From positions 1 through 43,621 of the forward strand of contig JAEEQL010000008.1 of NCBI GenBank assembly GCA_016285265.1: DNA of 43,621 bases, in the 5' to 3' direction. Source of the stretch: Lachnospiraceae bacterium. GTDB lineage: Bacteria; Bacillota; Clostridia; Lachnospirales; Lachnospiraceae. Below, piece after piece: positions 18,362-41,134 of this stretch. The position numbers and the translations under genes were made by a program. The notes under the pieces were generated by a model, which searched no databases, was not told the DNA's origin, and saw only the letters and a list, made by a program, of their open reading frames with translations. How positions within the stretch are numbered: the first letter of the stretch is position 1; each line of letters opens with the position of its first letter.

Positions 18362-18365
18362 GATA

Positions 18366-19536: not shown

Positions 19537-19568
19537 AAAAACAGGGCGATGCGTAAAGCATCGCCCTG
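19537..19568 (-). terminator. Terminator of the importer locus
   Basis: CAGGGCGATGC pairs with GCATCGCCCTG, an 11-bp perfect stem with a 5-base loop, followed by TTTTT on the minus strand. It closes the solute-binding lipoprotein gene. Confidence 0.93.
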
Positions 19569-19594
19569 CCGGATGTTTCATGTAAGAAACTTAC

Positions 19595-21127
19595 TTATTT
19601 AGCGTTTGCGTCAGCAACGTAAGCGTTCCACATGGTAGCTGCGGTCTCGATTGCAGCAGACATATCAAGGATGGTTCCGTTAGCAACGTCAACACCTACA
19701 TGATGTCTGAAGTCGGGTCCGATGTCAACCTGTGCAACTGACTCAGCGGGCTCATAAGTGCCGGTTCTGATGATTCTAACAACTGACTCGTCAACTGCTC
19801 TGAAGTCATCAAACTTAGCATAGTAAGAAGCCTTGATACCATCGAGTCCATCGATGAAATCTTCGTATCCGGGAGTATCCTGATAGAAGCAAAGGTATGC
19901 GAATGCGCACTTCCAAGCCTTGTCAGCATCATAGCATCCGGGGATGTAGTAAAGGTTCTCCTGAGCATATGATCCGAAGTGGCCCTTAGCGGAAGGTCCT
20001 TCAGGGAAGGATACGAAACCAACTTCGTCTTCCATTGATCTGCCGTCTTCGCCGATTCCTCTTACGTTGTCAGCTTCCCAAACCTGTCCGATGTAGAAAG
20101 CGGTATTTCCGGTAAGCCAATCAGTCTTGTAGAAGTCCCAAGCAGCATCAGCGGGATAGTAGTTGTGAGCGTCATAAGTGGAAACCATCTCCTGGAAGAA
20201 GTTGAGAGCTTCAGCAACCTCAGCATCATCAAATGCTACTCTGTAGCCTGCAGCTTCGTTCTTGATGAATGATCCGCCGTTTGAGAGAACGAACTCTTCT
20301 ACGCCGTCATCATAGTTTCCGGTAAATCCGTAAACATCGGGAGTACCGTCGTTATCGGTATCTCTCTGAACCTTCTCGCAAAGATCCTTCCAAGCGTCCC
20401 AGGTCCAGGTTCCGTTAGCCTGCATATCATAGAGGCTCTCGGGATCGATACCTGCGTCCTCAAGTACTCTCTTGTTGAAGAAGATTCCTTCACGTGCCTC
20501 AGGGAATCCGTTGCTGGTAGCGTACATGGTGTAAACGCTGCTTCCCTTTGCGAAGAACTCGTCAACACCGTTTCTGGTGAATACTGACTCATTCTTGAAA
20601 TCAAGGCAATCAAGGGTAGAAAGGTCATACATAAGTCCGGACTGTACAGCGGTGGTAGCTGCTGCGCACATACGGCCGGTGAATACATAGTATCCGTCAT
20701 CGCCGCCGGAAGTTACATAATCAGAGAACTGCTGGATACAATCGGACCAGGTAAGCTCATTGCCTGAGAAATTCTTGGTCTCCTTAACGGTGAAGTTGTA
20801 GGTCTCCTGGCACCACTCACGGTAATCCCACATAGCTTCCTCGTAATCATTTACGGGATCAGCAGGGGTGTCAGCTGCCCACCAGTTAACGATGTCGACT
20901 TCGATTCCACCAAGGTCGATGGGGTTGCCGTCAGCATCAGTAACAATCTGATACTTGCTTCCCTCATCTTCGGGCTCTACAGTAGGCTCTACTGTAGGAT
21001 TGGGATCGACTTCAGGCTGGGGAGTTACTTCGCCGGTATTGGTGGTGCCACCGCATCCTGCAAGTCCCGCAACCATAGCTGCTGTAGCACCTACAGCAAC
21101 GATCTGGTTCAAAAACTTTCTCTTCAT
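19595..21127 (-). CDS. Extracellular carbohydrate-binding lipoprotein of an ABC importer (second binding protein)
   Basis: The ATG at 21127 is chosen because AAAAGGAGG lies 4 bases upstream and it opens a lipoprotein signal ending AGLAGCGG; the reading frame extends 28 codons further without support. The mature protein (about 490 residues) has a Thr/Pro/Glu linker and then a type 1 solute-binding fold: REGIFFNKRVLEDAGIDPESL, WTWDAWKDLCEKV, YGFTGNYDDG, GNTAFYIGQVWEADN and a late GPSAKGHFGSYAQENLYYIPG. It captures a sugar, probably an oligosaccharide, outside the membrane. It follows the second permease pair but after a hairpin and a 121-base gap, which may allow separate expression. The ligand is unknown. 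Confidence 0.92.
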   Translation of the reverse strand: MKRKFLNQIVAVGATAAMVAGLAGCGGTTNTGEVTPQPEVDPNPTVEPTVEPEDEGSKYQIVTDADGNPIDLGGIEVDIVNWWAADTPADPVNDYEEAMWDYREWCQETYNFTVKETKNFSGNELTWSDCIQQFSDYVTSGGDDGYYVFTGRMCAAATTAVQSGLMYDLSTLDCLDFKNESVFTRNGVDEFFAKGSSVYTMYATSNGFPEAREGIFFNKRVLEDAGIDPESLYDMQANGTWTWDAWKDLCEKVQRDTDNDGTPDVYGFTGNYDDGVEEFVLSNGGSFIKNEAAGYRVAFDDAEVAEALNFFQEMVSTYDAHNYYPADAAWDFYKTDWLTGNTAFYIGQVWEADNVRGIGEDGRSMEDEVGFVSFPEGPSAKGHFGSYAQENLYYIPGCYDADKAWKCAFAYLCFYQDTPGYEDFIDGLDGIKASYYAKFDDFRAVDESVVRIIRTGTYEPAESVAQVDIGPDFRHHVGVDVANGTILDMSAAIETAATMWNAYVADANAK

Positions 21128-21166
21128 AATCCTCCTTTTGACCAAACGGTCATCCTTTATAATATT

Positions 21167-21184
21167 ATCCGCTTTATTGCGGAT
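21167..21184. promoter_or_regulatory. Inverted repeat in the leader of the second binding protein
   Basis: ATCCGC and GCGGAT flank AATAAA within the AT-rich stretch 40-60 bases upstream of the lipoprotein ATG. It could be an operator or an mRNA-stabilising hairpin; nothing more can be said. Confidence 0.3.
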
Positions 21185-21200
21185 TATATTTCGGGCTGAT

Positions 21201-21235
21201 AAAACCCACAAAGGATTATATCATAATCCTATGGG
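21201..21235 (-). terminator. Partial terminator between permease and binding-protein genes
   Basis: On the minus strand CCCA-AGGATTA pairs with TAATCCT-TGGG (small internal bulge) around TGATA, then TTTT. A TATAAT (21215-21220) lies inside it with a TTGGAC 19 bases upstream, so a weak internal promoter is also possible. Either would let the lipoprotein be expressed at a different level from the permeases. Confidence 0.6.
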
Positions 21236-21248
21236 AATTGTCCAATTT

Positions 21249-22265
21249 TTACATCTTGATACCTGTTGATGAAAGGCTCTCTACAAATCCCTTCTGAGCG
21301 AACAGATACAAGAAGATAAGAGGCAGAATGATCATCAGCGTACCGGTCGAAAGAATACAGTTCGAATATGCAACCGATACGGTAGTCTGTACACCGGTCT
21401 GGCTCGCAATGTAAGTAGAAAGGTCATCTGCTATGGATGAAAGCGAAGTACTTACAAGCTTAAGGTTTCCAAGGAACATTCTTGAATAGAAACCGTCAGT
21501 CCACTGCCAAACGAATGAGAACAGGAAGCAGGATACAAGAATGGGCTTTGCATCGGGAAGCATGATGATGACGAAGGTCTTAAGTGTTCCCGCTCCGTCA
21601 ACGTAAGCTGCCTCTTCGAGTTCCTTGGGGATGTTTCTGAAGAACTGTCTTATAAGGTAGATATACAGTCCGTTCTTAAGTCCCATACAACCCGCACTCA
21701 GCAGATAATACGGAAGGACCGAACCTCTGAGGTTGATCGTATTTCCGGTTACAAGCTTTGCAATTCCGAGAAAATCGAAAAACTTGAAGTGAAGATACAG
21801 GGATGTAGACATGATCTGGGGAGGGATGATGATCATAAGAAGAACACATCCGAACCAGAACCTCTTAAAAGGAAATTCATATCTTGCAAATCCGTATCCT
21901 ACGAGAGTACAAACCGCAACCTGGAGTAATCCGATGGTGAGTGAAGTGATCATCGAATTCTTGAATGCCAGCTTGTAATTCATAAGTTTAGCCGAAAGCT
22001 GGTAATTCGCGGTCGTAAAGTGAGCCGGAATATTGATGACAACGGGATCGTAAAGATCACCCTCAGTCATGAAGCTTACGGAAATCTTGTTAAGAATGGG
22101 CTGGATTATCATAAAGCAGAGTCCGAACAGAAGAATGAAACGGACAAAGCTGATAAACGCATTCGTTGCTATCTTTTTCTTTCTGAGTGCAGACATCTTG
22201 GGTCTGTCTTTGGATTTTGTCTTGCCCGTACTTGCAGGAGCACTCATCACCGCAGTATTACTCAT
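21249..22265 (-). CDS. Carbohydrate ABC importer permease, MalG-like (second pair)
   Basis: This 338-residue membrane subunit has a short basic cytoplasmic N-terminus, six predicted helices, and the EAA loop that docks the ATPase: EEAAYVDGAGTLKTFVIIMLPDAKP. GVQTTVSVAYSNCILSTGTLMIILPLIFLYLFAQKGFVESL matches the C-terminal end of MalG-like proteins, including the final EGSLK-like turn. Its start overlaps the stop of the partner permease by 8 bases, with AGGAGG 10 bases before the ATG. It pairs with that permease and probably with the lipoprotein downstream. The importer ATPase is not encoded nearby. Confidence 0.94.
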   Translation of the reverse strand: MSNTAVMSAPASTGKTKSKDRPKMSALRKKKIATNAFISFVRFILLFGLCFMIIQPILNKISVSFMTEGDLYDPVVINIPAHFTTANYQLSAKLMNYKLAFKNSMITSLTIGLLQVAVCTLVGYGFARYEFPFKRFWFGCVLLMIIIPPQIMSTSLYLHFKFFDFLGIAKLVTGNTINLRGSVLPYYLLSAGCMGLKNGLYIYLIRQFFRNIPKELEEAAYVDGAGTLKTFVIIMLPDAKPILVSCFLFSFVWQWTDGFYSRMFLGNLKLVSTSLSSIADDLSTYIASQTGVQTTVSVAYSNCILSTGTLMIILPLIFLYLFAQKGFVESLSSTGIKM

Positions 22266-23169
22266 AATAATAAACCCTCCTGGAAATTAAGAACGAGCTG
22301 ATGGCTAGGAACAAAATGGTCAGAACGAAATAGCACCATGCCATTGCAGACGACAGACCGTAGTTGAGCTGATCGACCATCGTATCGGTGATCTTAGTCA
22401 TAACTTCGTTGTCGGTTCTCATACAGAAATCAACTATGGTGTAGACCCAGTTTACAAGGAAGATGGAGCTGACCATAGGGAATGTAACCTTCCAAAGGCT
22501 CTCCCATGCGGTACATCCTTCGATGGAAGCTGCTTCATACATGCTCTTGGGTATTGTCTGGAGTCCGGAAAGGAAAACGATGATCTGGATTCCGGATGCA
22601 AGAGCTATATCATAGATGTTATCAATGAGTTCGAATACCGTTTCGTAAGCCCTGGTACCTATTCCGGCTGTTCTCAGAATATCCTCGAGAACGGCGGTGA
22701 CGCTTACGTTGGTCATGGACTCTTCAACAGTCGCATGCATCTGGGCGATGACCGAATTATCGGTTTCAAGTCCGAGAATAACACCGCTCGACAGGATTAC
22801 GGGAAGGAAGAATATCGCTCTTACGAATGCTCTTCCGTGGAATTCCTGATTGAGTATCAGCGAAACGAAGAAGGCGAATACCATGATGGCAAGCGAGTAA
22901 ACGATCATTCTTCCGAAGCCTTCAAGCAGAAGTCTCGAATAATCGGGATCGACTCTGAATGCATACATGTAATTCGAAATTCCGTTCCTGACCATTTCAA
23001 AGGAACCGGCACCTACCTGCACATCGCAGAAGCTCATGTAGAACGACTGGACCATAGGCTTTACCATAAAGAGTAAAAAGCCGATAATAAAGGGTGATAT
23101 GAACAGATAGCCTGTTACTGCCCTTCTCTTTTCAAGTCCGCTAACTTTTCCGTTTAATTTCTTCTTCAT
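22258..23169 (-). CDS. Sugar ABC importer permease, MalF/UgpA-like (second pair)
   Basis: This 303-residue permease has about six helices: YLFISPFIIGFLLFMVKPMVQSFYMSF at the start, MIVYSLAIMVFAFFVSLILNQ, and an EAA loop reading YEAASIEGCTAWESLWKVTFPMVSS. The Cys and the loss of the usual Gly-Ala after EAA are slightly off consensus. A roughly 60-residue insert after the second helix (SSGVILGLETDNSVIAQMHATVEES onward) faces outward and is longer than in MalF-like relatives of this size. It lies 21 bases after the DUF5696 gene and is coupled to the MalG-like partner. Confidence 0.92.
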   Translation of the reverse strand: MKKKLNGKVSGLEKRRAVTGYLFISPFIIGFLLFMVKPMVQSFYMSFCDVQVGAGSFEMVRNGISNYMYAFRVDPDYSRLLLEGFGRMIVYSLAIMVFAFFVSLILNQEFHGRAFVRAIFFLPVILSSGVILGLETDNSVIAQMHATVEESMTNVSVTAVLEDILRTAGIGTRAYETVFELIDNIYDIALASGIQIIVFLSGLQTIPKSMYEAASIEGCTAWESLWKVTFPMVSSIFLVNWVYTIVDFCMRTDNEVMTKITDTMVDQLNYGLSSAMAWCYFVLTILFLAISSFLISRRVYYYE

Positions 23170-23190
23170 ATCCGGGTCTCCGTATCGCCC

Positions 23191-25788
23191 TTATTTTACA
23201 ACCTTATAATCTCTTGCCGGAACGTTTATTCCGTCTCCCGCATAATCGGTATATCCGTAGTTGACATATACTCTGGTTCCGTCAGCATATTCGGTTACCG
23301 ATACGTAGTCATTGATATTTTCATGGCCGGTCATCTCCTGATTGAAGGTATGTCCGAGCTCATTGTTATATCTCGTGTAAGTCTCTACCAGCCTGTCGTG
23401 AACAGCTGCATAGCTGCTTCCGTAATACTGGGGATAAAGAGTCTTCTGAAGTGTCTTGGGATCTTCATCCATGATGCTGTAGCAAAGTCCTGCGCCGTAT
23501 TCGGCAGATGCGAGGATCTCATCGGTCTCACTTCCGCAGATATTTACCGGCATTCCGGTGTAATTGACATATCCGTGAAGAGCGAGCTCATAGAAAGGAA
23601 TAAACTCATCGATTATGGTATATTCGCTTCCCTTAAGATCCATATGGGTGATCATATCACTGTAAACAGCCGCATAGGAGTTACCGGAATTGATCATCAC
23701 GAATCCGCCGTTATCCTTGATCTCCTTAAGAACAGCTACCTGATCGATCATCGCTTCCTGTCTGGAGTGGGGATCCTTACGGTAGAAATCGCTGGCAAGA
23801 TCGGTTCCGATATCCTGGAATGAAGCACCTGTTGCTCCGTAAGAATCGCATGTCTTTACAAAGCTTCTCATCATCTTGGGGATGAGCTGCTCGTGGAGCA
23901 GGTAGTGCTCATCAAGATCGTCTCTGTCGCCGTAGGTGATCTGGCTGAAGGGATAGAGCTTGCAGAGCTCTCTGCTTATAAATCTTGCGGAATCCCTGTA
24001 AGTAAAGAATCCGTCGAAGATATTGGAGTTATATGCATACTCAACGATACCGTCAAGATATATCTGATTGCCCTGGGATACAACGGTATTGCAAAGGTTC
24101 TTGAGATCCCTTCCGGATCCGAGTGACATAATGGTATCAACATCCTTGATGTACTGCTGCTCAACGCCGCCGTTACACCAGCCGGTGAGCTTGACCACCA
24201 TATTCTCAATACCGTCCTGATCAAGCTGGGTGATGACTCCCTCAGCCTCCTTATAGGTAGTGAGCGCAAGAGGTCTCGATACGGGCATACCGAAGATCTG
24301 CTTAACCTTGTCTACCGCTCCGAGTACTTCGATGACACAGGGAGCTGCGGTATCGGTATTCTCGGTAAGATATCCATCTGCATTCTTAAGAAGATATGCC
24401 TTATATGCCTTGGCCATATCGATATAGCTTCCGGAGTTAACGAAGGTATATCTCTGGGACATAACCTCATCGGGAAGGCCATCCTGGAAAGCGAAGATAC
24501 GTGAGTTCGAAATGGAACCTACATCAAACTCTTCTCTTTCGATTACGCCGTACTCGGCGTTGACGTTATTGTAACTGTTGGATCTTCCGGAAATATCGGC
24601 TTCGATAGCCGCATATGCGGATCCGCCTTCAACGCTGCAGATGAAGGAATCCTTTCCGTTTGAGATTCCGAATGTGGAGAATACGGTACTGGTGCTGTGG
24701 ACAAGAGCATCTCTCGCATGGCACATATCCCAGCCGTAAACATTTGCATAGTAAACGCTCTGTGCGGTCTTGCCGTTATTGAAATGAATGAGTCCGCCGC
24801 TTCCCTCGGGAACAAGAAGGAAACCTTCGTCATCAAGTCCGCCCGCTCCGAAGAAGGGAAGGACATCAACGGCAAGGATGGGACGATCCTTGGGATATTC
24901 CATAGCGGAATAAGGCATTTCCACGATAAGATCACCACCGTCGAGTCTGTAGGTGATGTCTACATTGTATACGGCATTGCTGCCCTGATCTTCGGTATTC
25001 ATAAGTTCCTTGTCTTCAAGGAACTCTTCATATGTATATCCGGCAGATTCTTCAAAGATGGTCTGAAGCTTAGCCTTAACCGAATCGGTAGCTGTGTCAC
25101 GAAGAATATAGAGAGGCTCATTGGCAAGATCCGGATATGTTGCAAGGAGAGCTTCCTTGTCATCCTTCTTTCCGAGATCGTTGATATCGTATTTCTTGTA
25201 GTACTGCTTGATGATATTGAGATCGCCGGAGCTGAGTTCAGCCATATATCCTTCCATACGCTCAACGGTACATACGGGAGGAATGACATATTCCTTCTGC
25301 ACCTTACCGATCGAATAATGGACGGTTATGGATTCTCCGTCGGTATCCACTTCGTAGGTCTGGTTCTTGATACTGTAATCATAGTTGTTGTATGCAACTT
25401 CGGAACCGATCTCGTTAGCGTAGGTAACGTTAAGAGTGGATCTGATACGTCCCTTCTCCGAGCTCATTGCGATCCCGTCTTCTTCAGCATCCTCGGGAAC
25501 CGAGTACCATACCTTACCTGAAGACTTTACGAGCACATTGAAATAAGTAGTATTCGGATCGAATGTAAGCTTGAGCTCACTGTTCTCGAGTACTATCTCT
25601 TTTCCGTCTCCGGCATATGCATGAACGGGAATGATCTGCTCTTCTACTTCCGCATTCTGGTAAGTAACTACAAAAAAGATAAGTCCAGCTATGATGAGAG
25701 CAAATATTCCGGGAACGATCAGGGCCTTAAGGTTCTTGATGACCCCATTCCTGAATTCTCTCTTTTGTTCTTCACTTCTTTTTCTCAT
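23191..25788 (-). CDS. DUF5696 glycosidase-like membrane-anchored protein
   Basis: The protein has 865 residues. A basic N-terminus and a signal-anchor (about 22-45) place the bulk outside. A beta-rich region (about 60-450) starts with EIVLENSELKLTFDPNTTYFNVLVKSSGK, which resembles the supersandwich that precedes barrels in several glycosidase families, and includes LLVPEGSGGLIHFNNGK. The C-terminal half has a TIM-barrel feel: NMVVKLTGWCNGG, QIYLDGIVEYAY, SYGATGASFQDIGTDL, GGFVMINSGNSYAAVYSDMITHMDLKG and YVNYTGMPVNICGS. This is the DUF5696 pattern. Catalysis is not proven, but Asp/Glu residues at strand ends are compatible. It sits centrally among two permease pairs, so it may trim the imported glycan. 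Confidence 0.85.
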   Translation of the reverse strand: MRKRSEEQKREFRNGVIKNLKALIVPGIFALIIAGLIFFVVTYQNAEVEEQIIPVHAYAGDGKEIVLENSELKLTFDPNTTYFNVLVKSSGKVWYSVPEDAEEDGIAMSSEKGRIRSTLNVTYANEIGSEVAYNNYDYSIKNQTYEVDTDGESITVHYSIGKVQKEYVIPPVCTVERMEGYMAELSSGDLNIIKQYYKKYDINDLGKKDDKEALLATYPDLANEPLYILRDTATDSVKAKLQTIFEESAGYTYEEFLEDKELMNTEDQGSNAVYNVDITYRLDGGDLIVEMPYSAMEYPKDRPILAVDVLPFFGAGGLDDEGFLLVPEGSGGLIHFNNGKTAQSVYYANVYGWDMCHARDALVHSTSTVFSTFGISNGKDSFICSVEGGSAYAAIEADISGRSNSYNNVNAEYGVIEREEFDVGSISNSRIFAFQDGLPDEVMSQRYTFVNSGSYIDMAKAYKAYLLKNADGYLTENTDTAAPCVIEVLGAVDKVKQIFGMPVSRPLALTTYKEAEGVITQLDQDGIENMVVKLTGWCNGGVEQQYIKDVDTIMSLGSGRDLKNLCNTVVSQGNQIYLDGIVEYAYNSNIFDGFFTYRDSARFISRELCKLYPFSQITYGDRDDLDEHYLLHEQLIPKMMRSFVKTCDSYGATGASFQDIGTDLASDFYRKDPHSRQEAMIDQVAVLKEIKDNGGFVMINSGNSYAAVYSDMITHMDLKGSEYTIIDEFIPFYELALHGYVNYTGMPVNICGSETDEILASAEYGAGLCYSIMDEDPKTLQKTLYPQYYGSSYAAVHDRLVETYTRYNNELGHTFNQEMTGHENINDYVSVTEYADGTRVYVNYGYTDYAGDGINVPARDYKVVK

Positions 25789-25836
25789 AAATACTCCGGT
25801 ACAGCTTTTTTCTATCTGATGATATTATTCAGCGCA

Positions 25837-26532
25837 CTATGCCCTGAACAGGAATTCTCTGTAAAGTGAATAAAAATATCCGATGCCCTGGGTGATCATA
25901 CTGAAGAACAGCATAAGTATGAATACCATGACGAGCATTGCAAACAGCGAGAATACAAGGAACAGGATGTTCTTGGCTCCGCCGAACTCATGGATCTGTC
26001 CCATACCTGCAATAAGGAGAAGTCCGCACCATATAATCGAGATTGCCGAGAGCACCGTGTAGAACTGTGCTTCATTAACGGTAAGGCCGTTGGAAAGGAT
26101 CATCAGAGGGACCTGCATGAGCGGGTAAGGAGTAAGTGCATAGCAGGTTCCGATATAAACCTGACCGAGCTTTCCTTTTCCGTCGAACAGTGTCGTGGTT
26201 GCCCAGTTGCCGATAACAAACAGTGCAAGGGGGAACAGGATACTGGCGATATATAACCAGACATTCAGGTCCTCCCAGTAGACCGTCTGGATGACGAAAC
26301 TGGTATATTTCAGATTGAGAAGTCTTACGAGTACGGTAGCGATAAGAATCGTGTTCGCAGCCGCGTAAGTTCCTCTTTTTTCATGGGTGAGATCCCAGAA
26401 TCCGTCGAGGGGATGCGTTAAGCAATAAAGGGAGAACTTAAGTGAATCCCAATATTTCGCATCGAAGGTCTTCCTGAACCAGCCGAGGATTCCGCCCACT
26501 ACACTATTTTTTTTAACTTCTGTATTTGCCAT
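25837..26532 (-). CDS. YIP1-family integral membrane protein
   Basis: This 231-residue protein has five predicted helices: AANTILIATVLVRLL, WLYIASILFPLALFVIGNW, the ALTPYPLMQVPLMIL turn, FYTVLSAISIIWCGLLLIAGM and ILFLVFSLFAMLVMVFILMLFF. The N-terminal part (WFRKTFDAKYWDSLKFSLYCLTHPLDGFWDL) is typical of bacterial YIP1-domain proteins, as is ALTPYP in the third helix. The bacterial role is unknown. The ribosome site is weak (AGAGAG). It lies 24 bases after the NHL gene and 48 bases before DUF5696 and is part of the same unit. A scaffold or assembly role for the surface complex is only a guess. Confidence 0.85.
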   Translation of the reverse strand: MANTEVKKNSVVGGILGWFRKTFDAKYWDSLKFSLYCLTHPLDGFWDLTHEKRGTYAAANTILIATVLVRLLNLKYTSFVIQTVYWEDLNVWLYIASILFPLALFVIGNWATTTLFDGKGKLGQVYIGTCYALTPYPLMQVPLMILSNGLTVNEAQFYTVLSAISIIWCGLLLIAGMGQIHEFGGAKNILFLVFSLFAMLVMVFILMLFFSMITQGIGYFYSLYREFLFRA

Positions 26533-26556
26533 AATATGTTCTCTCTGGTCAAAGCT

Positions 26557-28209
26557 TTATCTGTTGCTGCCCATCTTAGCGAGCTTGCGGGCTTCTTTCT
26601 TAGCTTTTTCTCTTTCCCTGAATTCCTGACGCTGCTTCTTGTGATACTCTCTTATCTCTTCCCTGGTCATATTATCCTCGGGATCAGGGAATCTGAATAC
26701 GTCGGAAGTAGCTATCTCGATCTTCATGTTTCTGTACTTCTCGATTCCGAGAGGAATGAGGAAGACTAGAAGGATGATGGCTACCGTTATAAAGAGATGG
26801 CTCTGAACCCATTCCTTACGGTATTCCTTGAATGCCTTGGAATAATTCTCGTCATCATACTTGAGCTCGAAATAATCCATTGCTTCCTTGTATCTTTCCT
26901 GACGGAGGAGAGAACGTCCGATTCCGATGTAAGCAAGATCGTAGTTGCCGTCGGCATCGAGTACTCTCTGCCAGGATTCTCCGGAAGCTTCATATTCACC
27001 GCGGTCAAACTGATCGATCGCGTTGTAGATATTCTGTCCGAAATCACTGAGAACGAAATAAGTTATGGAACAGTCGGCCTGGTCAAGTACGAGAAGATCG
27101 TATCCGATATGCTCGATACCGATGGGACGTCTGAAATATCCGTCCATATTACCGTTTCCGCCGAATCCGAAGACCATGCGTCCCTGATCGTCATATCCGA
27201 AAAGTCTTCCGCGGTTTCTGTCGAGACATACATAGATATCATTCTCAAATGCGGTTACATCGGAGAAGGATGAAGGTCCCGAGTATCCGCCTGCGGAACC
27301 CCAGTAGATATCTCCGCAGTTGAGCCAGTTGCCGTTATTTACAAGAATGTTGTTTCCGAGAAGGTTAAGCCTTCTGACCGAATCAACCTTAAGATCATCG
27401 AGAGCCTGAGCATCCGATACGGGAACGCTGGCATAAATGAAGCCTTCATAATCCATATAGATGTTGCTGTACTCGGTAGGAACGTCAACCGGCATACGGT
27501 CGATCTGTTCCTGGGTGGCAAACTTCTTCCAGATATAATCCCAAAGATCGTAAGGAGCCTTTGTGGCACCGATGAAGCCTGCGAACGTTCCGTCAGCCTC
27601 ATACTTGAGAAGACCCTTGTTGATACCGTCGGATATGCAGTAAACTCTCTCCGCGGTGTCGACGACCAGCTTATTGGGAAGGAAGATCGTATCTGCCGAA
27701 AGAGCGGAGTCAACGGGAAGGTCGAACTGCATCAGATAATTGAGATTGGGATCAACCTTTACGATTCGGTTGTTGCCCTTATCGGCTATGAAGATATTAC
27801 CGTCCTCGGAGATTGCAATATCGGTAGGTCCGCTCAGATTGGAAGGTCCGGGAGCGAGCTTGATCGATGAGAACTCATGATCGTATACGAGACCCAGATC
27901 GGGATCCGTGGCAAGAACAACGATCTTATTGTTTCCGGTATCACAGATATATACATATCCGTCATGCTGATATATTCCGGAGGGATTGTTCAATCTCTCG
28001 GGAAGTCCGAGCTCGGAAGATGTGAAAACCTTGAATACCTCATATACATCGGGAGTATCCTGTACATCACCCCAATAATCGTAAATGTAAGTATAGCTTC
28101 TGTGCTCAACAGCATCCGAATGCATGGGAACACTGAGTATTCCTATGGCAGCTGCTGCAAGGACCGCACCTATTCTTTTGATCTGAAAATGTAAGGGCTT
28201 CTTCATCAT
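26557..28209 (-). CDS. NHL-repeat beta-propeller / TPR protein with C-terminal membrane anchor
   Basis: This 550-residue protein has a signal peptide (about 1-33), then an extracellular six-blade NHL propeller: SGIYQHDGYVYICDTGNNKI, PTDIAISEDGNIFIADKGNN, PNKLVVDTAERVYCISDG, YSNIYMDYEGFIYASV, SDVTAFENDIYVCLDRNRG and IGIEHIGYDLLVLDQAD. A TPR pair follows (EYEASGESWQRVLDADGNYDLAYIGIGRSLLRQERYKEAMDYF split over two helices each), then a membrane helix (FITVAIILLVFLIPLGI) and a charged cytoplasmic tail rich in Arg, Glu and Lys. It lies between permease pair one and YIP1, two bases after the upstream permease gene, so it is coexpressed. Glycan or partner binding is inferred. Confidence 0.85.
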   Translation of the reverse strand: MMKKPLHFQIKRIGAVLAAAAIGILSVPMHSDAVEHRSYTYIYDYWGDVQDTPDVYEVFKVFTSSELGLPERLNNPSGIYQHDGYVYICDTGNNKIVVLATDPDLGLVYDHEFSSIKLAPGPSNLSGPTDIAISEDGNIFIADKGNNRIVKVDPNLNYLMQFDLPVDSALSADTIFLPNKLVVDTAERVYCISDGINKGLLKYEADGTFAGFIGATKAPYDLWDYIWKKFATQEQIDRMPVDVPTEYSNIYMDYEGFIYASVPVSDAQALDDLKVDSVRRLNLLGNNILVNNGNWLNCGDIYWGSAGGYSGPSSFSDVTAFENDIYVCLDRNRGRLFGYDDQGRMVFGFGGNGNMDGYFRRPIGIEHIGYDLLVLDQADCSITYFVLSDFGQNIYNAIDQFDRGEYEASGESWQRVLDADGNYDLAYIGIGRSLLRQERYKEAMDYFELKYDDENYSKAFKEYRKEWVQSHLFITVAIILLVFLIPLGIEKYRNMKIEIATSDVFRFPDPEDNMTREEIREYHKKQRQEFREREKAKKEARKLAKMGSNR

Positions 28210-28211
28210 TG

Positions 28212-29330
28212 TTAATCCTTAAGTCCGGAGGATGCCATGGTTTCAAGTATCTGGCTCTCGGAGAATATGAATATTGCTATAGGTACTATCATCAGAACGA
28301 CAAGTACGGCTGCCGCTTCACCCGTTCTCGCGATACCGCCGGCCTGGATCTGCTGCATTGCGAAGGGAAGGGTTTTCATTTCCTCGGAATAGATGACTGT
28401 TGAAGCTTTGTTGTTCCAAAGTGCCTGTACCGAGAAAATAATGAGTGTCAGCCATGCGGGCTTGACGTTTGGCATTACTATCTTACTGAAAACAGTCCAC
28501 TCGGTCGCACCGTCTATCTTCGCCGCTTCGATAAGTGAAGTGGGAAGTCCTTCCATGAACTGCTTCATAAGGAAGAGACCCATCGGGAATGCGAATGCGG
28601 GAATGATTATTGCCCAGTAAGTATCGATCATGTGAAGCTTACTCATGATGATGTAGTTGGGAATCTGGGTAACATATCCGGTGAACATCATTGCCACGGT
28701 TACGAGCCTGAAGAATGTCTTTCCGCCGGGGAACTCATACTTTGCAAGAACGAAAGCCGCCATTGATGCAATGATCAGATGTCCCGCGGTTCCGACTCCC
28801 GTAATGAATACGGTGTTGAACATGTATCTGGAGAAGGAAACCCATGACTTTCCGAGTGTTACGAACAGATCGGAAAAGTTATCAAGCGTGGGATTCTGTG
28901 CAAATATCCTGGGAGGGAATTTGAACAGCTCGTCGAGAGGCTTGAGTGCCGACTCAACCGCATAGATGATCGGGAAGAACATAACGATCGCAACTATGAC
29001 AAGGAAGAGATACAGGAAAATATCTCCCGCAATACTTCTGTTGGGCTTGCGGCGCTTGATGAGGGGTTTGTGATAAACCTCCTCCTCTTCTTCCTTCTTC
29101 CTGGACTTTTTGGTCTTCTTTACGGAAGTCTTTTCCTTGGAAGGAGCTTTCTTTTCGGCTTTGGCGGTCTCTTCAACATCATCAACCGCTTCGAGCTTGG
29201 AAAGAGCCTCATCCTCAAGATTGAAAGCGTCAGCCTGAACGGTCTCTACCACTTCGGTATCGACGGTTTCCTGAGCCTCCGTAACAATGTTCTGGTTTTC
29301 TGCTGTGTTGTTATTATTCATATCGGACAT
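28212..29330 (-). CDS. Carbohydrate ABC importer permease, MalG-like (first pair), with charged N-terminal extension
   Basis: This 372-residue permease has six helices from about residue 100. Its EAA loop is canonical (IEAAKIDGATEWTVFSKIVMPNVKP), and the end (FSESQILETMASSGLKD) closely matches the EGLTAGAVKG-like tail of MalG-type subunits. The first 95 or so residues are unusual: an Asn/Thr start, then a Glu/Asp/Val-rich acidic stretch and a Lys-rich block (EKKAPSKEKTSVKKTKKSRKK) followed by EEEEE. This is cytoplasmic and probably disordered. It abuts the partner permease gene (one base) and is coupled to the NHL gene (two bases). Confidence 0.94.
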   Translation of the reverse strand: MSDMNNNNTAENQNIVTEAQETVDTEVVETVQADAFNLEDEALSKLEAVDDVEETAKAEKKAPSKEKTSVKKTKKSRKKEEEEEVYHKPLIKRRKPNRSIAGDIFLYLFLVIVAIVMFFPIIYAVESALKPLDELFKFPPRIFAQNPTLDNFSDLFVTLGKSWVSFSRYMFNTVFITGVGTAGHLIIASMAAFVLAKYEFPGGKTFFRLVTVAMMFTGYVTQIPNYIIMSKLHMIDTYWAIIIPAFAFPMGLFLMKQFMEGLPTSLIEAAKIDGATEWTVFSKIVMPNVKPAWLTLIIFSVQALWNNKASTVIYSEEMKTLPFAMQQIQAGGIARTGEAAAVLVVLMIVPIAIFIFSESQILETMASSGLKD

Positions 29331-29331
29331 A

Positions 29332-30270
29332 TCAGGTACCTACCCTGCTGAGCATTGACTGTATTGCCTTGTTGCAAAGGATCATTATGAGGAACAGGAT
29401 AGTTGCTATCGAACAAGCATAACCCATTTCGAATCTGCTGAAACCGTAGTCCCACAGGTGGGTTACGATGGTTCTTGCAGCATAGTCGGTGGAAGGATAT
29501 CCGCAAAGAGTCATGGTGACCTCACAGACACTGAAGGCCTGGGTTATCGACATGACCGCACCGAACATGAGCATGGGCTTCATATTGGGGAGAGTGATGA
29601 ACCACAGTTCCTGCCATCTGTTCTTAACACCATCCATATATCCGGCTTCATACTGGGACTTATCAATACCCTGAAGACCTGCAACGAATGAAAGGAATCC
29701 TGCTCCAAGGCTCATCCAGAGAATAACAAGCATACATACGGGAAGCATGTATCTGGGATCGATGAACCAGAGGATCGGAGTATCAATGATACCGGCATTC
29801 ATAAGGAATGCATTTACGTATCCGTATGCATCGCCTCTGAAGAATACTGAGAAGATGACGTAGCAGTTACCTGCGATCGAAGGAGCATAGAATACAACGA
29901 CCGCAACGCTTCGTACCCATCTGGGAAGCTCGTTGATCAGCCATGCGAACAGGAAGCTTCCGAGATATCCGAGAGGACCGGTTATGATAGCTATCATGAA
30001 CGTATTCTTGATCGCCATCAGGAAGATGTCATCCTCAAGGAAAAGGGAAACGTAATTCTGTAAGCCTACAAATCTGGGAGCTTCCAGAATATTGTAATAA
30101 GTGAAACCGAATACGATCGAAATAACGACGGGAAGTATGTAGAACATCGTAAATACGATCGCATACGGAGCGAGGAAGAGATAGCAGGGTATGGAAAGTC
30201 TTGCTTTCTTTACTCCCACTCTGAAATTATGCTTTTTTACTTTGACGTAATCTTTAAAAAATTGTGACAT
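29332..30270 (-). CDS. Sugar ABC importer permease, MalF/UgpA-like (first pair)
   Basis: This 312-residue permease has LFLAPYAIVFTMFYILPVVISIVFGFTYYNI as its first helix, then NTFMIAIITGPLGYLGSFLFAWLI, VAVVVFYAPSIAGNCYVIFSVFF and the docking loop YEAGYMDGVKNRWQELWFITLPNMKP. The YAARTIVTHLWDYGFSRFEMGYACSIATILFLIMI end is typical of UgpA/LacF/YtcP-like subunits. GGAG lies before the ATG, embedded in the last codons of the giant binding-protein gene (three-base gap), implying tight coupling with that ligand receptor. Confidence 0.95.
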   Translation of the reverse strand: MSQFFKDYVKVKKHNFRVGVKKARLSIPCYLFLAPYAIVFTMFYILPVVISIVFGFTYYNILEAPRFVGLQNYVSLFLEDDIFLMAIKNTFMIAIITGPLGYLGSFLFAWLINELPRWVRSVAVVVFYAPSIAGNCYVIFSVFFRGDAYGYVNAFLMNAGIIDTPILWFIDPRYMLPVCMLVILWMSLGAGFLSFVAGLQGIDKSQYEAGYMDGVKNRWQELWFITLPNMKPMLMFGAVMSITQAFSVCEVTMTLCGYPSTDYAARTIVTHLWDYGFSRFEMGYACSIATILFLIMILCNKAIQSMLSRVGT

Positions 30271-30273
30271 CTG

Positions 30274-33234
30274 TTACATTTCTCCGTATACAGGTAAGCC
30301 GAACTCGCGTCTCTTTCTGTCTATCTCGTCATCGATGAGTATCGAATAATCGATGATCGTCTCACGGGCATCCGTCTTCTCGTTGATAACCTTTCTGCAG
30401 GCATTTGCGATATGGCGTCCGGTGTAGTATCCGCCGGGAACCTCTCTGATACCTACGGTCGAATCCCACTGTTCGTTGAGAACCTGGATATCATTATAGC
30501 TCCATGAGAGCTGTGAGAATGCGTCGCGGTTTGCGGTGGCATATCTTGCGGATGATCCGAGGAGTGCCTCGATCTCACGTCCGAATCTTACCTGGGTCTC
30601 AGGTGTAGCCCACCACTTCATGAACTCCCAGGAGTTCTGCTTTACGATCTCGTCATCGGTGGCGATCATCATGGTCGCGTTACCGGTGATGAAGTCGGAC
30701 CTGTCGATATAGACATTGCCGTTCTCATCCACTCTTTCGGTTCCGGGAACGAGAGTAAAGTCCCAAAGCCCCTTTATCTCGGGTGCGGATACCATCAGTG
30801 TGTTGTACTGAGAGTAGTTGCAGATTCCGATAGGCATCTCGCCCGAACGGAAACGGCTTACGAAGTCATATATTACGGGAAGACCATAGTCGTTAAAGTA
30901 TCTGGTGTAATCATCGAATGCCTTGACGCCGGCCTCGGTATCTACGGTAGTCTTGTTTCCGACATCGTTGTACATGTCACCGCCGTACTGGAACAGGAGC
31001 GTGAAGTACAGTGAAAGATCGGGAACGTTGGATGCAACTGCGGTTGATGCCGTTGCGGTGGTGCTGGAACCTGCTGCTGTAGGAATACCTACGGAGAGGT
31101 TGTTACCCTGGATGGTGGGAAGCATCTCGATGAGTTCCTTCCAGGTGTTGGGCGGCTCAAGTCCGAGCTCGTCAAGTACGTCCTTACGGTAGAACATAAC
31201 GCAGAACTGCTGCTGCTCGGGAACCGCATAAATATGATCGTCCAGTCTGTACTGCTCGTAAGAGCTTGCGGAATAGTGACTGAGCACATCTTCCCATCCT
31301 TCAAACTGGGTAATGTCTTCGGATGCATGTCTGAGTGCATAGTTGACAGGCTGATCTGCACCGACGGAAAGAACGACATCGGGACCTCTTCCTGCAAGAA
31401 CCGCATTCAGGAGTGCGTTGGGATCGACGATCTCCACATTGACCTTGATTCCGGTCTCGGGAGTGAAGGTATCATCTATCATCGTCTTAAGGATGGTACC
31501 CTGGTCACGTCCGGTGGTAACCCATACCTTAATGGTATCTTCGCGGCTTGCTCCTTCATAAACGTTACCTACGGAATTGTAGTCGACTATGAATGAGGAA
31601 ACAAAGCTCTTGACCTCATGTACCGCCTTATTCCAGAAGTGAGTCTTATCGGCGGGAGGATTGGTTCCCGTTCCGGTGATGACGATGTAGTCAATATCCA
31701 TCTTGGTATCGCTGAGGTTGAGCATTGCGGTACCGAGAGCGGTGATATTATCCTTAAATGTAATGAACTCGTGAGTGATCTTGCCGGGCTTCTCGCAGAA
31801 ACGCTCGAGCTGCTGTGCAACGGTCTGGGCTGCTGCGATATTGGTCGCCTTCTGGCCGGTAAGCTCTACGTATTCATCAACGATCCTGTAGAGTCTTCTG
31901 TACTCGAGTTCCATCGCATCCATGATCTCGGGATAGTTGTCCTGGATACGGTAGTCTCTGTACTGGTCGGGATTTGCACCGGTAAATACAAGAATCCTTC
32001 TGTAGATCTGGTTGAGTCTGTAGGTTGAATCCTCGAGCTCCTCAATGATGGGGCCGACACTTCCGAGAACCGACTCTATTCTTAATGTATGTGTTCCTTT
32101 TGTAAGCCAGACCTTGCAGGGATTGCCATCGGCATCAGCCAGACTTATGATCTCCCAGTCATTGTCATAAGGGAAGGCTACGGCTTCGGCATCCTCAAAA
32201 GGAATCTCGCCGTCAATATATACCGCTCTGGAGGTGATCTGTCCTCTTGCGTAATTCTGACGCCCCTTGATGTCTATATTATAGTAGCCGTCCTGTTCGA
32301 TAACAAAATCCCACTCGATCCACTGTCCCGCAGCTCTCCAGGATTCACCGCCGGTATAGTTGAGAACGGTGCTGGTAACGCTGTAAGGCTGAGTGGTAGG
32401 TGATGCTCTGTCATACTTTGCGTAAAGAGATGACTCACTGCGGCGTACGGAATCCTCACCCTGGATGATCTGGATGTAATCTGCTGCCGCACCGGTATCG
32501 GCGGGAGATGCCGCGATATAGTCCTGATATGATACGGATTCTTTGACCGGCTCAAGAGAAAGAGCCTTGATGACCATGGGCTCGCTCTCAGCTCCGAGGC
32601 CGATAGTCTGTGAACCCTTGTCAAAATAGAAAGTGTAGGGATGCTGAACATAACCCATATCATCCCTGAAATATGAAGACTGCCAGTCGAATATCTCGAC
32701 CTGTGCAGGTCTGATCTCATTGCCCTGGTTATCGGTTCTTACCTCACCGCCGTCAGTCCAGATACGTGAGAAGATAAGTGTGCTCGCATCAGCGAAAGGA
32801 AGCTCTCCGTTGATGTAAACAGCTCTCTCGGCCTGAACGCCTCTTGACTCGGGAATAAGGTAATCCATCTTGACGTAATAGTATCCCGATTCGGGTACGT
32901 CAACAGGCCAAGATACCACCGATTCGGTCTCGGTATAAAGAGCCTTGGCCTCATCGTAGTAATCGGTAACCACCTCTGCCTCTCCGTTTTCGACGGTGTA
33001 ATTGAATATATCGATGTCTACCGTCTTATCGGGGCATGCAGCTCCCTCATGTTCGAGCAGGTAACCGGTATAGGTCCCGGTCCTCTCGAGTCCCACTACA
33101 TCAGTAGTAAGATCGTATCCCGCGTACTTCTCATGAAATGTTTCCTTACCGCGAAGGTTAAGAAGAACGCAAATGCCTGCGAATGCTCCGCAGAAAACAA
33201 CTGTGCCTATAAGCTTTTTTGTTCCGTTTCTCAT
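30274..33234 (-). CDS. Giant membrane-anchored solute-binding protein with two extra carbohydrate-binding-like modules
   Basis: This 986-residue protein is about twice the usual size for an ABC binding protein. An N-terminal helix (LIGTVVFCGAFAGICVLLNL) without a lipobox anchors it. Two similar beta-sandwich modules follow (about 75-245 and 270-400). Each has a PxxGYYxVxxxY- or QDGYYNIDI-type strand, then RAVYINGELPFADA and RAVYIDGEIPFEDA respectively, and end in a YxxxKGxxTxxxxxE strand like CBM6/CBM35 domains. A helical segment (about 420-540) links to the type 1 solute-binding domain (about 580-960): KVWVTTGRDQGTILKTMIDDTFTPETGIKVNVE, GRGPDVVLSVG, IYAVPEQQQFCVMFYRKDVL. It is first in the locus. 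No Shine-Dalgarno sequence is seen before the ATG. Confidence 0.9.
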   Translation of the reverse strand: MRNGTKKLIGTVVFCGAFAGICVLLNLRGKETFHEKYAGYDLTTDVVGLERTGTYTGYLLEHEGAACPDKTVDIDIFNYTVENGEAEVVTDYYDEAKALYTETESVVSWPVDVPESGYYYVKMDYLIPESRGVQAERAVYINGELPFADASTLIFSRIWTDGGEVRTDNQGNEIRPAQVEIFDWQSSYFRDDMGYVQHPYTFYFDKGSQTIGLGAESEPMVIKALSLEPVKESVSYQDYIAASPADTGAAADYIQIIQGEDSVRRSESSLYAKYDRASPTTQPYSVTSTVLNYTGGESWRAAGQWIEWDFVIEQDGYYNIDIKGRQNYARGQITSRAVYIDGEIPFEDAEAVAFPYDNDWEIISLADADGNPCKVWLTKGTHTLRIESVLGSVGPIIEELEDSTYRLNQIYRRILVFTGANPDQYRDYRIQDNYPEIMDAMELEYRRLYRIVDEYVELTGQKATNIAAAQTVAQQLERFCEKPGKITHEFITFKDNITALGTAMLNLSDTKMDIDYIVITGTGTNPPADKTHFWNKAVHEVKSFVSSFIVDYNSVGNVYEGASREDTIKVWVTTGRDQGTILKTMIDDTFTPETGIKVNVEIVDPNALLNAVLAGRGPDVVLSVGADQPVNYALRHASEDITQFEGWEDVLSHYSASSYEQYRLDDHIYAVPEQQQFCVMFYRKDVLDELGLEPPNTWKELIEMLPTIQGNNLSVGIPTAAGSSTTATASTAVASNVPDLSLYFTLLFQYGGDMYNDVGNKTTVDTEAGVKAFDDYTRYFNDYGLPVIYDFVSRFRSGEMPIGICNYSQYNTLMVSAPEIKGLWDFTLVPGTERVDENGNVYIDRSDFITGNATMMIATDDEIVKQNSWEFMKWWATPETQVRFGREIEALLGSSARYATANRDAFSQLSWSYNDIQVLNEQWDSTVGIREVPGGYYTGRHIANACRKVINEKTDARETIIDYSILIDDEIDRKRREFGLPVYGEM

Positions 33235-33295
33235 AGTGTTAATTATATTTACGATAGGTTAAACAATCCAATTAATTTTTGCTTTTTCGGTATTA

Positions 33296-33325
33296 ATTTT
33301 ATGCAAAAAATCGATAGAAAGTCAA
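33296..33325 (-). promoter_or_regulatory. Promoter of the double-importer locus
   Basis: On the minus strand a TTGACT -35 (33320-33325) and TAAAAT -10 (33296-33301) have an 18-base spacer. Initiation near 33289 would give a leader of about 55 bases, very AT-rich and without a clear ribosome site before the ATG at 33234. Confidence 0.7.
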
Positions 33326-33383: not shown

Positions 33384-34286
33384 CTAAGGCTTTTTTAGCT
33401 TTATTTGACCATCTTCGTATGAAACGACCAGTCTGCCGGTCTGTCCGCCCAGTTTTTCGACTACATCCGCAGGCAGCTGCAGGCGTCCCGCCTTGTCCAC
33501 GACTACGTACTCTTCCTGGGTTTCCTCGTTCCTCCAGTCAACTCCCGACTCTTTAAGCCTGTCGGCAAAGCTTTCCTTGAGTATCCTCTCGGAACTGATA
33601 CGGCCGTCCCTTATCGCCACAACCCTTCGCACCTTCCTCGAAAGCGCCAGGTCATGCGTTACGACAAGTATCGTCTGTCCCGCTTCATTGAGCTTCGTGA
33701 ATATCTCAAAGATCTGGTCGCCCGTCTTCTCGTCGACCGAACCCGTGGGTTCGTCCGCAAGAAGGAGTCCCGGTGAATTCGCAAGCGCTATGGCTATCGC
33801 TATTCTCTGCTGCTCTCCTCCGGAAAGCGTCTGCAGCTTGGAGTTACGGTGGTCAGCCATTCCGACGGCTTCGAGAAGCTCTTCGGCCCGCTGCTTCTTT
33901 TTCTTCTGACCGCTGAACCTCATCGGTATGCAGATATTGTCTATGGCGGTCAGGTAAGGGAAAAGGTTCCTTGCGTTGTTCTGCCAGACGAATCCGACCG
34001 TCTCACGCTTGTACCTGACCCTTTCGCTCTCTGTCATACGGAAGAGATTCCTTCCTCCGACGAAGAGCTTTCCCGCACTGGGGATGTCGAGTCCGCCGAT
34101 CATATTCAGGAATGTCGATTTACCCGAACCGGAATTACCGATCAGCGCGGTGAACTCGCCCTTTTCAACCTTCAGATCCAGGCCTGACAGCGCGAGCACC
34201 TCGGTTTCCTTGGTCTTGTAGATCTTGACCAGGCCTTCCGCATCTATCATATATTCGGGAGTTTTAACTTCATCAGCCATCTTCAC
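33384..34286 (-). CDS. MacB/LolD-type ABC ATPase with C-terminal AbrB-like hairpin
   Basis: The protein has 300 residues. The ATPase domain (about 12-235) has GNSGSGKST (Walker A), LSGGEQQRIAIA (signature), LLLADEPTGSVD (Walker B/D-loop) and VVTHDLALS (H-loop), typical of exporters that work with FtsX-type permeases. A linker leads to residues about 250-300: YVVVDKAGRLQLPADVVEKLG, the swapped-hairpin AbrB/SpoVT/MazE pattern, ending in SYEDGQIKLKK. Such a tail is unusual on an ATPase and could dimerise the protein or link export to regulation. It overlaps the preceding ATPase gene by 14 bases. It is last in the five-gene export operon, and no terminator follows. Confidence 0.88.
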   Translation of the reverse strand: MKMADEVKTPEYMIDAEGLVKIYKTKETEVLALSGLDLKVEKGEFTALIGNSGSGKSTFLNMIGGLDIPSAGKLFVGGRNLFRMTESERVRYKRETVGFVWQNNARNLFPYLTAIDNICIPMRFSGQKKKKQRAEELLEAVGMADHRNSKLQTLSGGEQQRIAIAIALANSPGLLLADEPTGSVDEKTGDQIFEIFTKLNEAGQTILVVTHDLALSRKVRRVVAIRDGRISSERILKESFADRLKESGVDWRNEETQEEYVVVDKAGRLQLPADVVEKLGGQTGRLVVSYEDGQIKLKKP

Positions 34287-34959
34287 CGCTCCCTTCTATA
34301 CGTCCGTTCTTAAGCTCTATCAGCTGGTCGCCCGCTCCCATGAGACCTACATCGTGGGTCGTCATGATGATGGTGACATGTTCTTCTTCGGATATCTGCT
34401 TGAACAGCCTCGTCACTTCGGTAGCCATTCCGGAGTCAAGCTCCGCCGTAGGCTCGTCTGCAAGGATTATCCTCGGGTGATGTGCGATCGCCCTTGCTAT
34501 CGCAACTCTCTGCTGCTCACCTCCGGACATTTCCTGCGGCATATGTGTCATTCTGTTCGAAAGACCGACGATGGAAAGAACCTCCGCCGCTCTTTTATCC
34601 ATGTCTTCCTTGACACCCGCCATACGCATCGCAAATTCCACATTCTGTATGGCATTCATCGAAGGGATAAGGCTTACGGACTGGAATACGAATCCCATCT
34701 GCCTTCTTCTCATATTCTCCCTTGCGAGAGCGTTCATCGAATGAGAACTGTTTCCGTCGATCAGGATCTGACCCGATGTGGGATCGTCAAGCGCTCCGAT
34801 TATGTTGAGAAGAGTCGTCTTGCCGGATCCGGATTTTCCTCTCAGGATGCACATGGTATCGGGCTGTATGGTACATGTGATACCCTTGAGCACCGAAACC
34901 TTTCCGCCGGGAGTCTGGAAATCTCTTGTGACGTTTTTGACTTCAATAAGCGATCCCAT
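34273..34959 (-). CDS. MacB/LolD-type ABC ATPase (second of pair)
   Basis: This 228-residue ATPase has GKSGSGKTTLLNIIGALDDPTSG (Walker A and following), the family-typical MGFVFQSVSLIPSMNAIQNVEFAMRM, MSGGEQQRVAIARAIAHHP (signature), IILADEPTAELD (Walker B) and IMTTHDVGLM (H-loop). The length is that of LolD/MacB-NBD proteins. It sits between the FtsX-type permease (one-base gap) and the AbrB-tailed ATPase. The two ATPases are clearly different proteins, so they may form an asymmetric pair on the single large permease, as in heterodimeric exporters. Confidence 0.93.
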   Translation of the reverse strand: MGSLIEVKNVTRDFQTPGGKVSVLKGITCTIQPDTMCILRGKSGSGKTTLLNIIGALDDPTSGQILIDGNSSHSMNALARENMRRRQMGFVFQSVSLIPSMNAIQNVEFAMRMAGVKEDMDKRAAEVLSIVGLSNRMTHMPQEMSGGEQQRVAIARAIAHHPRIILADEPTAELDSGMATEVTRLFKQISEEEHVTIIMTTHDVGLMGAGDQLIELKNGRIEGSGEDG

Positions 34960-34960
34960 A

Positions 34961-41105: not shown

Positions 41106-41134
41106 AACTAATACCCTTTCTTTCCCCACGTGAA

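Follow-up and report, generated by a model that had tools for sequence, protein, structure and literature searches.

The DNA analysed here is a 43,621-nucleotide stretch of contig JAEEQL010000008.1 (the whole stretch is referred to as the window), in which nine genes were found in a row on the minus strand, running from 33234 to 19595. By Pfam order their products are a solute-binding protein (SBP), two permeases, an NHL protein, a Yip1 protein, a DUF5696 protein, two further permeases and a second SBP. An earlier sequence-only reading had described nine same-strand genes forming a glycan uptake system, and both the coordinates and the Pfam matches agree with that gene content. The nearest named DNA belongs to a water-buffalo rumen Lachnospiraceae metagenome-assembled genome (MAG), with a DUF5696 protein 95% identical, and the host is therefore probably a rumen Lachnospiraceae.

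Layout of the nine-gene locus

The features of the locus, in order of transcription, are as follows:

33296..33325, minus strand: promoter-like site before SBP1 (TTGACT-18-TAAAAT), 10/12 consensus; upstream stretches enriched in relatives
30274..33234, minus strand: SBP1, 986 amino acids (aa); Pfam SBP; anchor helix, two beta-sandwiches, helical domain, solute-binding domain
29332..30270, minus strand: permease P2, UgpA-like, EAG..DGV loop; Pfam and family match
28212..29330, minus strand: permease P3, UgpE/GlcU-like, EAA loop; Pfam and family match
26557..28209, minus strand: NHL protein, weak TPR match; Pfam
25837..26532, minus strand: YIP1-domain membrane protein, 231 aa; Pfam PF04893, 43.6 bits against a cut-off of 28.6
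23191..25788, minus strand: DUF5696 protein, 865 aa; Pfam, 608 bits; GH129-like part
22258..23169, minus strand: permease P7, EAA.IEG loop; Pfam
21249..22265, minus strand: permease P8, MalG-like, EAA loop; Pfam and family match
21215..21244, minus strand: promoter-like site before SBP9 (TGGACA-18-TATAAT, TG-extended), 11/12; top site of the scanned region
19595..21127, minus strand: SBP9, 510 aa, lipobox LAGC; AGGAGG and ATG at 21127 (open reading frame (ORF) list: TTG 21211)
19540..19570, minus strand: intrinsic terminator stem-loop after SBP9; folding against shuffles

The ATG at 21127 is most likely the true start of SBP9 rather than the TTG at 21211, because it is preceded by AGGAGG and followed by the lipobox LAGC. 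With this correction the intergenic gaps, taken from the ORF coordinates in transcription order, are 3, 1, 2, 24, 48, 21, -8 and 121 bases; seven of the eight are below 50 bases, and the final gap, before SBP9, is wider than had been assumed. One good promoter had been proposed for the whole unit. The site at 33325-33296 does exist, but a stronger one lies before SBP9 and a single promoter is probably wrong. Consensus scanning alone proves no promoter, since 26 promoter-like sites were found across the region compared with 25.6 in shuffled sequence. Relatives were examined on a scoring scale of our own (maximum 13, threshold ≥10), the 107 nine-gene loci having been reduced to 90 by removal of those more than 90% alike in DUF5696. 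The threshold was reached before SBP9 in 21% of 78 gaps (5% when shuffled) and before SBP1 in 32% of 90 stretches (7% when shuffled). Six of the seven other gaps, all but the one after SBP1, gave 0%, but these are short with an expectation of only 0–2%. As the strongest promoter-like site of the region directly precedes SBP9 and such sites are enriched there in relatives, the locus probably has two transcription starts, one before SBP1 and one before SBP9. The strong terminator expected at the end of the unit was recovered as a 13-pair stem of -24.4 kcal/mol (z -6.1), equalled by none of 200 shuffles; a simple scan had not reported it.

The two permease pairs with their binding proteins form two CUT1-type sets, each consisting of a family 1/8 SBP and two BPD_transp_1 permeases over the Pfam cut-offs, as the sequence-only reading had it. 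An EAA-type loop is kept in all four permeases over the 90 loci (P2 carries EAG instead of EAA), so that all four should couple to an ATPase. In permease P3 of the window, ~95 residues of a charged N-terminal extension precede the first membrane helix, most relatives being ~290 residues long overall; P3 is also long in the same-genus loci L085 and L089.

The N-terminus of SBP1 forms a hydrophobic helix in 83 of the 90 loci and shows a lipobox-like motif in only three, which fits the membrane-tethered receptor predicted earlier, whereas SBP9 carries a lipobox-like motif in 80 of 90. The predicted structure of SBP1 (pLDDT 84) consists of two beta-sandwiches, a helical domain and a C-terminal solute-binding domain at ~568–977, to which, by comparison of the model, the closest solved structures are sugar-binding proteins. 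Pfam gave no carbohydrate-binding module (CBM) match in the N-terminal parts of SBP1, with nothing over cut-off. A profile of this region matched a cycloisomaltooligosaccharide glucanotransferase (5x7g, E 2.2e-6) and a module labelled "lipolytic enzyme, G-D-S-L" (2w47, E 1.4e-3); the matched regions are what we take to be CBM35, and on that assumption the beta-sandwiches are remotely CBM35-like.

Of the three extra membrane proteins that had been named NHL/TPR, YIP1 and DUF5696, all received their Pfam matches, but the TPR match fell below cut-off. The NHL protein has an N-terminal signal-like helix, a membrane helix at 466–492 and a short charged tail. NHL and YIP1 form a single fused protein in 13 of the 161 loci mapped below; the same holds for 15 of another 28 loci, drawn from other families, and Pfam finds both domains in all three fused proteins scanned. 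Yip1 proteins also exist outside the module, the domain being over cut-off in 63 of 245 genomes surveyed. MusI-type proteins are credited with assisting maltose importers in Corynebacterium. The YIP1 protein of the window showed no MusI or DUF624 sequence match at E 0.01, though it may work alike.

Conservation of the module and its two halves

Loci were mapped with profiles built from the window genes, the gene calls being our own ORF picks combined with profile thresholds. The 161 loci comprise the window, two plasmid records, 78 stretches hand-picked from a longer list of full-length matches (no more than three candidates being scored per genome) and the best 80 of 527 relatives; since some stretches are the same DNA (e.g., L089 and L124), locus counts are not independent. 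A further 28 loci (L201–L228) were hand-picked from a phylum-level search. Of the 161 loci, 138 have the complete eight-gene core (SBP1, two permeases, NHL, YIP1, DUF5696, two permeases) in unchanged order, mostly with SBP9, and the co-occurrence and gene order anticipated by the sequence-only reading are therefore conserved elsewhere. Of the remaining 23, 20 run into the end of a sequence, which leaves L106, L195 and L200 as true or seeming exceptions. DUF5696 lies within the module in nearly every uncut locus examined. The order is shared by many bacteria that break down plant fibre; carriers include Butyrivibrio hungatei, B. proteoclasticus, Lachnotalea glycerini and two Treponema MAGs (L194 and L198), the last two lying outside Bacillota and possibly reflecting transfer or mis-binning. 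In the order to which the window belongs, 110 of 393 genomes have DUF5696 over cut-off, and for the phylum the figure is 43 of 398; these are upper figures for the module, because some low-scoring GH129-type enzymes are included. In the openly accessible literature searched, no mention of DUF5696 was found, and for YIP1 in connection with ABC importers, their binding proteins and NHL repeats a single unrelated paper came up; none of the papers listed describes the wide eight-gene core or the role of its accessory trio (NHL, YIP1 and DUF5696).

Past the terminator lies a tandem pair of genes from one family (311 and 324 aa; 17426–19340), which has no confident Pfam match, the weak Peptidase_U32 matches being below cut-off. 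The first of the pair gave no convincing solved relative (best E 0.17). This family is found downstream of 48 of the 161 loci, often in tandem.

On sequence evidence the set splits into two semi-independent halves, namely SBP1 with its permease pair, and NHL-YIP1-DUF5696 with the second pair and SBP9. The trees compared were single FastTree runs, a split being counted as found if the other tree contains it, whatever its support there; with the labels shuffled once as a control, none was found and all 54 of 54 were contradicted. The accessory trio is assigned by descent to the second importer because the trees agree, the blocks are separable and the copy numbers differ. The NHL/YIP1 tree recovers 43 of 50 strong splits when compared with DUF5696-P7-P8 (2 contradicted), against 33 found and 15 contradicted when compared with SBP1-P2-P3. 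SBP9 behaves likewise, with 37 of 49 strong splits found and 11 contradicted for DUF5696-P7-P8, against 22 and 24 for SBP1-P2-P3. The SBP1 block stands after P8 in five loci (L212, L217, L219, L220 and L226) and is missing from the stretch in L205, L209, L210 and L211 (L209 and L211 being cut by contig ends), and L213 is rearranged in another way. After manual merging of double matches to a single gene, DUF5696 copies number about twice those of SBP1 in three genomes of one genus (10 vs. 4 in G450, 8 vs. 4 in G541 and at least 9 vs. 4 in G516), while seven of 12 compared genomes have equal numbers; G429 and G469 also have DUF5696 in excess but are fragmentary. L205, L210, G450, G516 and G541, all of other families, look as if several second halves had few first halves in common. 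Judged by descent, the first importer is a close yet separable partner of the second half.

These results bear on two explanations of how the halves relate. It may be that they are two independent, co-regulated importers of one polysaccharide, with the trio assisting the P7/P8 importer only, in the manner we presume for MusI. The tree comparisons and the separable blocks favour this, as do the separate names XloEFG and AxoFGE given to the importers of Caldicellulosiruptor bescii (PMC8579813), but the halves occur together in all uncut loci of the 161 bar L106 and perhaps L195; this explanation is placed slightly below even odds. Alternatively, NHL, YIP1 and DUF5696 could bridge both importers in a membrane supercomplex, a proposal that we regard as doubtful; equally doubtful is its corollary that long oligosaccharides are handed from SBP1 to the propeller, on to the GH129-like domain and into the second importer. 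The constant order and near-constant gene content would fit such a complex, together with the NHL-YIP1 fusions and the membrane anchors on SBP1, NHL and DUF5696. Mean identities over the 90 loci range from 0.69 (P2) and 0.67 (P3), the highest, to 0.35 (SBP9), the lowest, and correlations between the pairwise identities of the components lie at 0.86–0.98, though shared descent alone could produce such values. The trees of the halves partly conflict, however, each contradicting strong splits of the other (16 of 54 and 20 of 56), and the swapped block order and unequal copy numbers also count against a supercomplex. The earlier notion of one cooperating surface machine thus keeps the constant order and gene content in its favour but is weakened by the conflicting trees, swapped blocks and unequal copies; as an indivisible unit, the nine-gene set is likewise weakened by the trees and the copy numbers.

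ATPase supply, substrate and the DUF5696 protein

Profile scans found no dedicated MalK-type ATPase in the unit, as the sequence-only reading had stated. A MalK/UgpC-type ATPase adjoins only one of the 161 loci (L035, Paenibacillus cellulosilyticus, where a UgpC ATPase stands directly before SBP1), 128 loci having at least 1 kb on both sides, and an importer-type ATPase was found beside none of the 28 further loci. Elsewhere in the genome an OB_MalK ATPase was detected in 62 of the 63 module genomes checked, which are the sources of the hand-picked stretches; 61 were over cut-off and 42 genomes had exactly one. The genome without a match (G384) has an ATPase domain that is 51% identical, which is not decisive. 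The window genome has two UgpC/MalK-type ATPases. One (L054) scores 492.7 bits against the UgpC family (cut-off 432), has no permease among its three scanned neighbours and stands between a MusI-like membrane protein and a CdaR-type regulator; the second (L055) has permeases beside it. The MusI-like protein that precedes the first ATPase (L054:11753-13774) scores 126 bits, below the family cut-off of 160. The CUT1 importers of C. bescii lack ATPases, and its msmK deletion mutant is severely impaired in growth on the di-, oligo- and polysaccharides tested (PMC8579813). The earlier suggestion of a shared MsmK-like ATPase is supported by this deletion and by the solitary ATPases found elsewhere in the genomes, and by analogy a solitary UgpC/MsmK-type ATPase most likely powers both importers.

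Directly upstream of the nine genes (33384–41129) lies a MacB-like exporter operon with two LolD-like ATPases, an FtsX protein and two HlyD/RND-adaptor-type proteins. These two ATPases, the nearest to the unit, had been called exporter ATPases, and their best matches are indeed LolD/FtsE/MacB-type families, yet below those cut-offs. As a source of the missing importer ATPase they were rejected, being of this type and not MalK/UgpC. HlyD/FtsX/LolD-like parts flank 34 of the 161 loci, upstream or downstream, which seems too frequent for accident and would be expected if the exporter genes powered, or formed part of, the module; given the type of their ATPases and the 127 loci with no exporter part among flanking ORFs (the flanks often being short, with a median of 6.9 kb for both sides summed), we consider this very improbable.

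Genes of glycoside hydrolase (GH) families GH10, GH43, GH67 or GH115 flank 79 of 161 loci and those of GH26 or GH130 flank 12, never both; the former point to xylan and the latter to mannan. Neighbour classes were formed from clusters of at least five loci with one representative scanned, by which single GH genes are missed (e.g., GH43 beside L034). In a tree of the four permeases (82 classed loci) the xylan/mannan class changes once, and two genomes carry one copy per class (L067 and L068; L046 and L040). The window copy falls in the xylan group and has a GH10 gene downstream. Scanning of 10 further flanking ORFs revealed GH31 by the fused-type L104, GH95 by the fused-type L090 and a GH106-like gene beside L099 (below cut-off) and L109, with four of the 10 lacking a Pfam match. 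LacI-type regulators lie beside 10 of the 161 loci and AraC-type regulators beside 54. It is reported that the B. proteoclasticus sugar-binding protein Bpr_I0182 was detected on xylan only (PMC5217386). Lying two numbers from the xylosidase Bpr_I0184, it may be SBP9. The glycan uptake proposed earlier is supported by these enzyme neighbours and by the C. bescii xylan locus, and the substrate here is, on genomic context, most likely xylan oligosaccharides.

The DUF5696 protein had been proposed as a possible trimming enzyme. It has a membrane anchor helix at 15–46 followed by a GH129-like part. Its predicted structure (pLDDT 87) has ZgGH129 and NagBb as top matches (TM to target 0.67–0.74), and its profile matches GH129 with probabilities of 99.0% (A1) and 95.9% (A3). 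Such a fold, together with the GH129 label given to the gene at the corresponding place in C. bescii (PMC8579813), would suit an active membrane-bound glycosidase trimming side groups ahead of import. We take D435 and E478 to be the catalytic residues of NagBb. The column of the acid/base Glu contains Asn in 110 and Glu in 15 of 188 DUF5696 proteins, the window protein having Asn700. The nucleophile column is uncertain because two profile alignments disagree on its placement; Asp659, the better candidate, fits one only. Of the 188 proteins, 126 have D and 10 have E in its column; by type, D stands there in 119 of the 160 separate proteins and in only 7 of the 28 fused ones. The combination of an acidic residue in the nucleophile column with Glu in the acid/base column was found in five of 188 proteins, the window protein not among them. 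Since GH129-like acids occupy both positions in so few proteins, a non-hydrolytic role is favoured, and trimming is not supported. An ordinary enzyme is likewise not supported, the acid/base Glu being mostly Asn and the alignments conflicting on the nucleophile. As judged from its sequence and model, the protein is a relative of GH129 whose role is more likely sugar binding or structural than normal hydrolysis, and an active glycosidase is unlikely. This is also a caution against treating DUF5696 as a functional GH129 before activity has been proven. Low-scoring PF18952 matches (L116, L119 and L120) are GH129-type enzymes, L116 matching NagBb at E 2e-266; as such enzymes exceed its cut-off, annotation by the Pfam DUF5696 model mixes two families.

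Proposed hemicellulose uptake and known relatives of the module

It is proposed that the nine genes form a two-importer capture and uptake module for hemicellulose oligosaccharides, with a shared ATPase and a non-hydrolytic DUF5696 accessory, to which we assign a probability of roughly 0.7. Secreted enzymes, e.g., the GH10 xylanase encoded downstream, would release xylan fragments, to be bound by SBP1, with its apparently uncleaved membrane helix and two CBM35-like domains, and by SBP9, a more variable lipoprotein with seemingly its own promoter. SBP1 would deliver to P2/P3 and SBP9 to P7/P8, a solitary UgpC/MsmK-type ATPase encoded elsewhere would drive both importers, and the NHL propeller, YIP1 and DUF5696 would act as membrane accessories belonging by descent to the P7/P8-SBP9 half. 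The proposal draws on the observed gene order, conservation, neighbours, domains and genome content and takes xylan induction and the shared MsmK from the published C. bescii work; from these we infer which SBP serves which permeases, what is imported here and every role assigned to the trio.

Several observations weigh against this proposal. None of the counted GH classes occurs in 51 of the 148 loci with at least three flanking ORFs, the substrate in the window genome is deduced from neighbour genes, and the single class change in the permease tree was compared with 200 label shuffles (mean 11.4, lowest 9) that ignore shared descent. In the draft genome, which is 92% complete, the MsmK-type ATPase is encoded on a different contig from the module. 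L106 has DUF5696-P7-P8-SBP9 without the other genes despite 9.8 kb of upstream sequence. Glu is the commonest letter (10 of 28) at the acid/base column of the fused-type proteins, which would also suit an active glycosidase. Finally, the roles given to NHL, YIP1 and DUF5696 are putative.

The importers are of a known kind and the conserved module has already been seen in part in C. bescii. More speculatively, and we think improbably, the trio could be a new class of importer accessory in which an extracytoplasmic propeller and a non-catalytic GH129 fold are held by YIP1 on P7/P8. It is just as improbable that the trio threads long hemicellulose oligosaccharides from a membrane-bound receptor with CBMs into tandem importers with one shared ATPase. 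If a new class were confirmed, it would be a Gram-positive functional counterpart to SusCD-type glycan uptake; to our knowledge Gram-positive bacteria lack SusCD. The module offers a precise target for the old question of how Gram-positive bacteria take up large hemicellulose fragments, and with genetics and a xylan phenotype available in C. bescii, the roles of NHL-TPR, YIP1 and DUF5696 can be put to the test.

Several known systems can be compared with the module. The fold of the DUF5696 protein is common to GH129 (NagBb and ZgGH129) and GH101, from which it differs in having a membrane anchor and in that the catalytic acids are mostly not conserved. CUT1 importers sharing MsmK or MsmX in Streptococcus pneumoniae, Bacillus subtilis and C. 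bescii (PMC8579813) are alike in having an SBP, two EAA permeases, an operon without an ATPase and a solitary UgpC-type ATPase in the genome; unlike them, the module has two complete importers together and three extra membrane proteins. Plasmid pNP243 of Butyrivibrio fibrisolvens D1 (NZ_CP146964.1) carries nine annotated genes in an order identical to that of the window, with DUF5696 27% identical, but differs in having GH43 and a two-component system upstream and a second SBP downstream.

The closest described relative is the C. bescii xylan degradation locus, published as xloEFG-X-GH129-axoFGE with the shared ATPase MsmK, where on xylan the proximal genes are up ~10–100 fold and the distal genes 4–9 fold (PMC8579813). 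XynR binds the operator of this locus with a Kd of 161 nM, according to a second report (PMC12285236). Both the C. bescii locus and the window have two CUT1 importers around X and a GH129-labelled gene in the same order, no ATPase in the locus and adjoining xylan enzymes (GH10 downstream in the window). The C. bescii-type order is also seen in L214, L216 and L228, with GH43 next in L214 and L216; by place and order these three would be Caldicellulosiruptor, X of the published locus would be NHL-YIP1 and its GH129 would be DUF5696. NHL-YIP1 is one fused protein in these three loci, compared with two separate proteins in the window.

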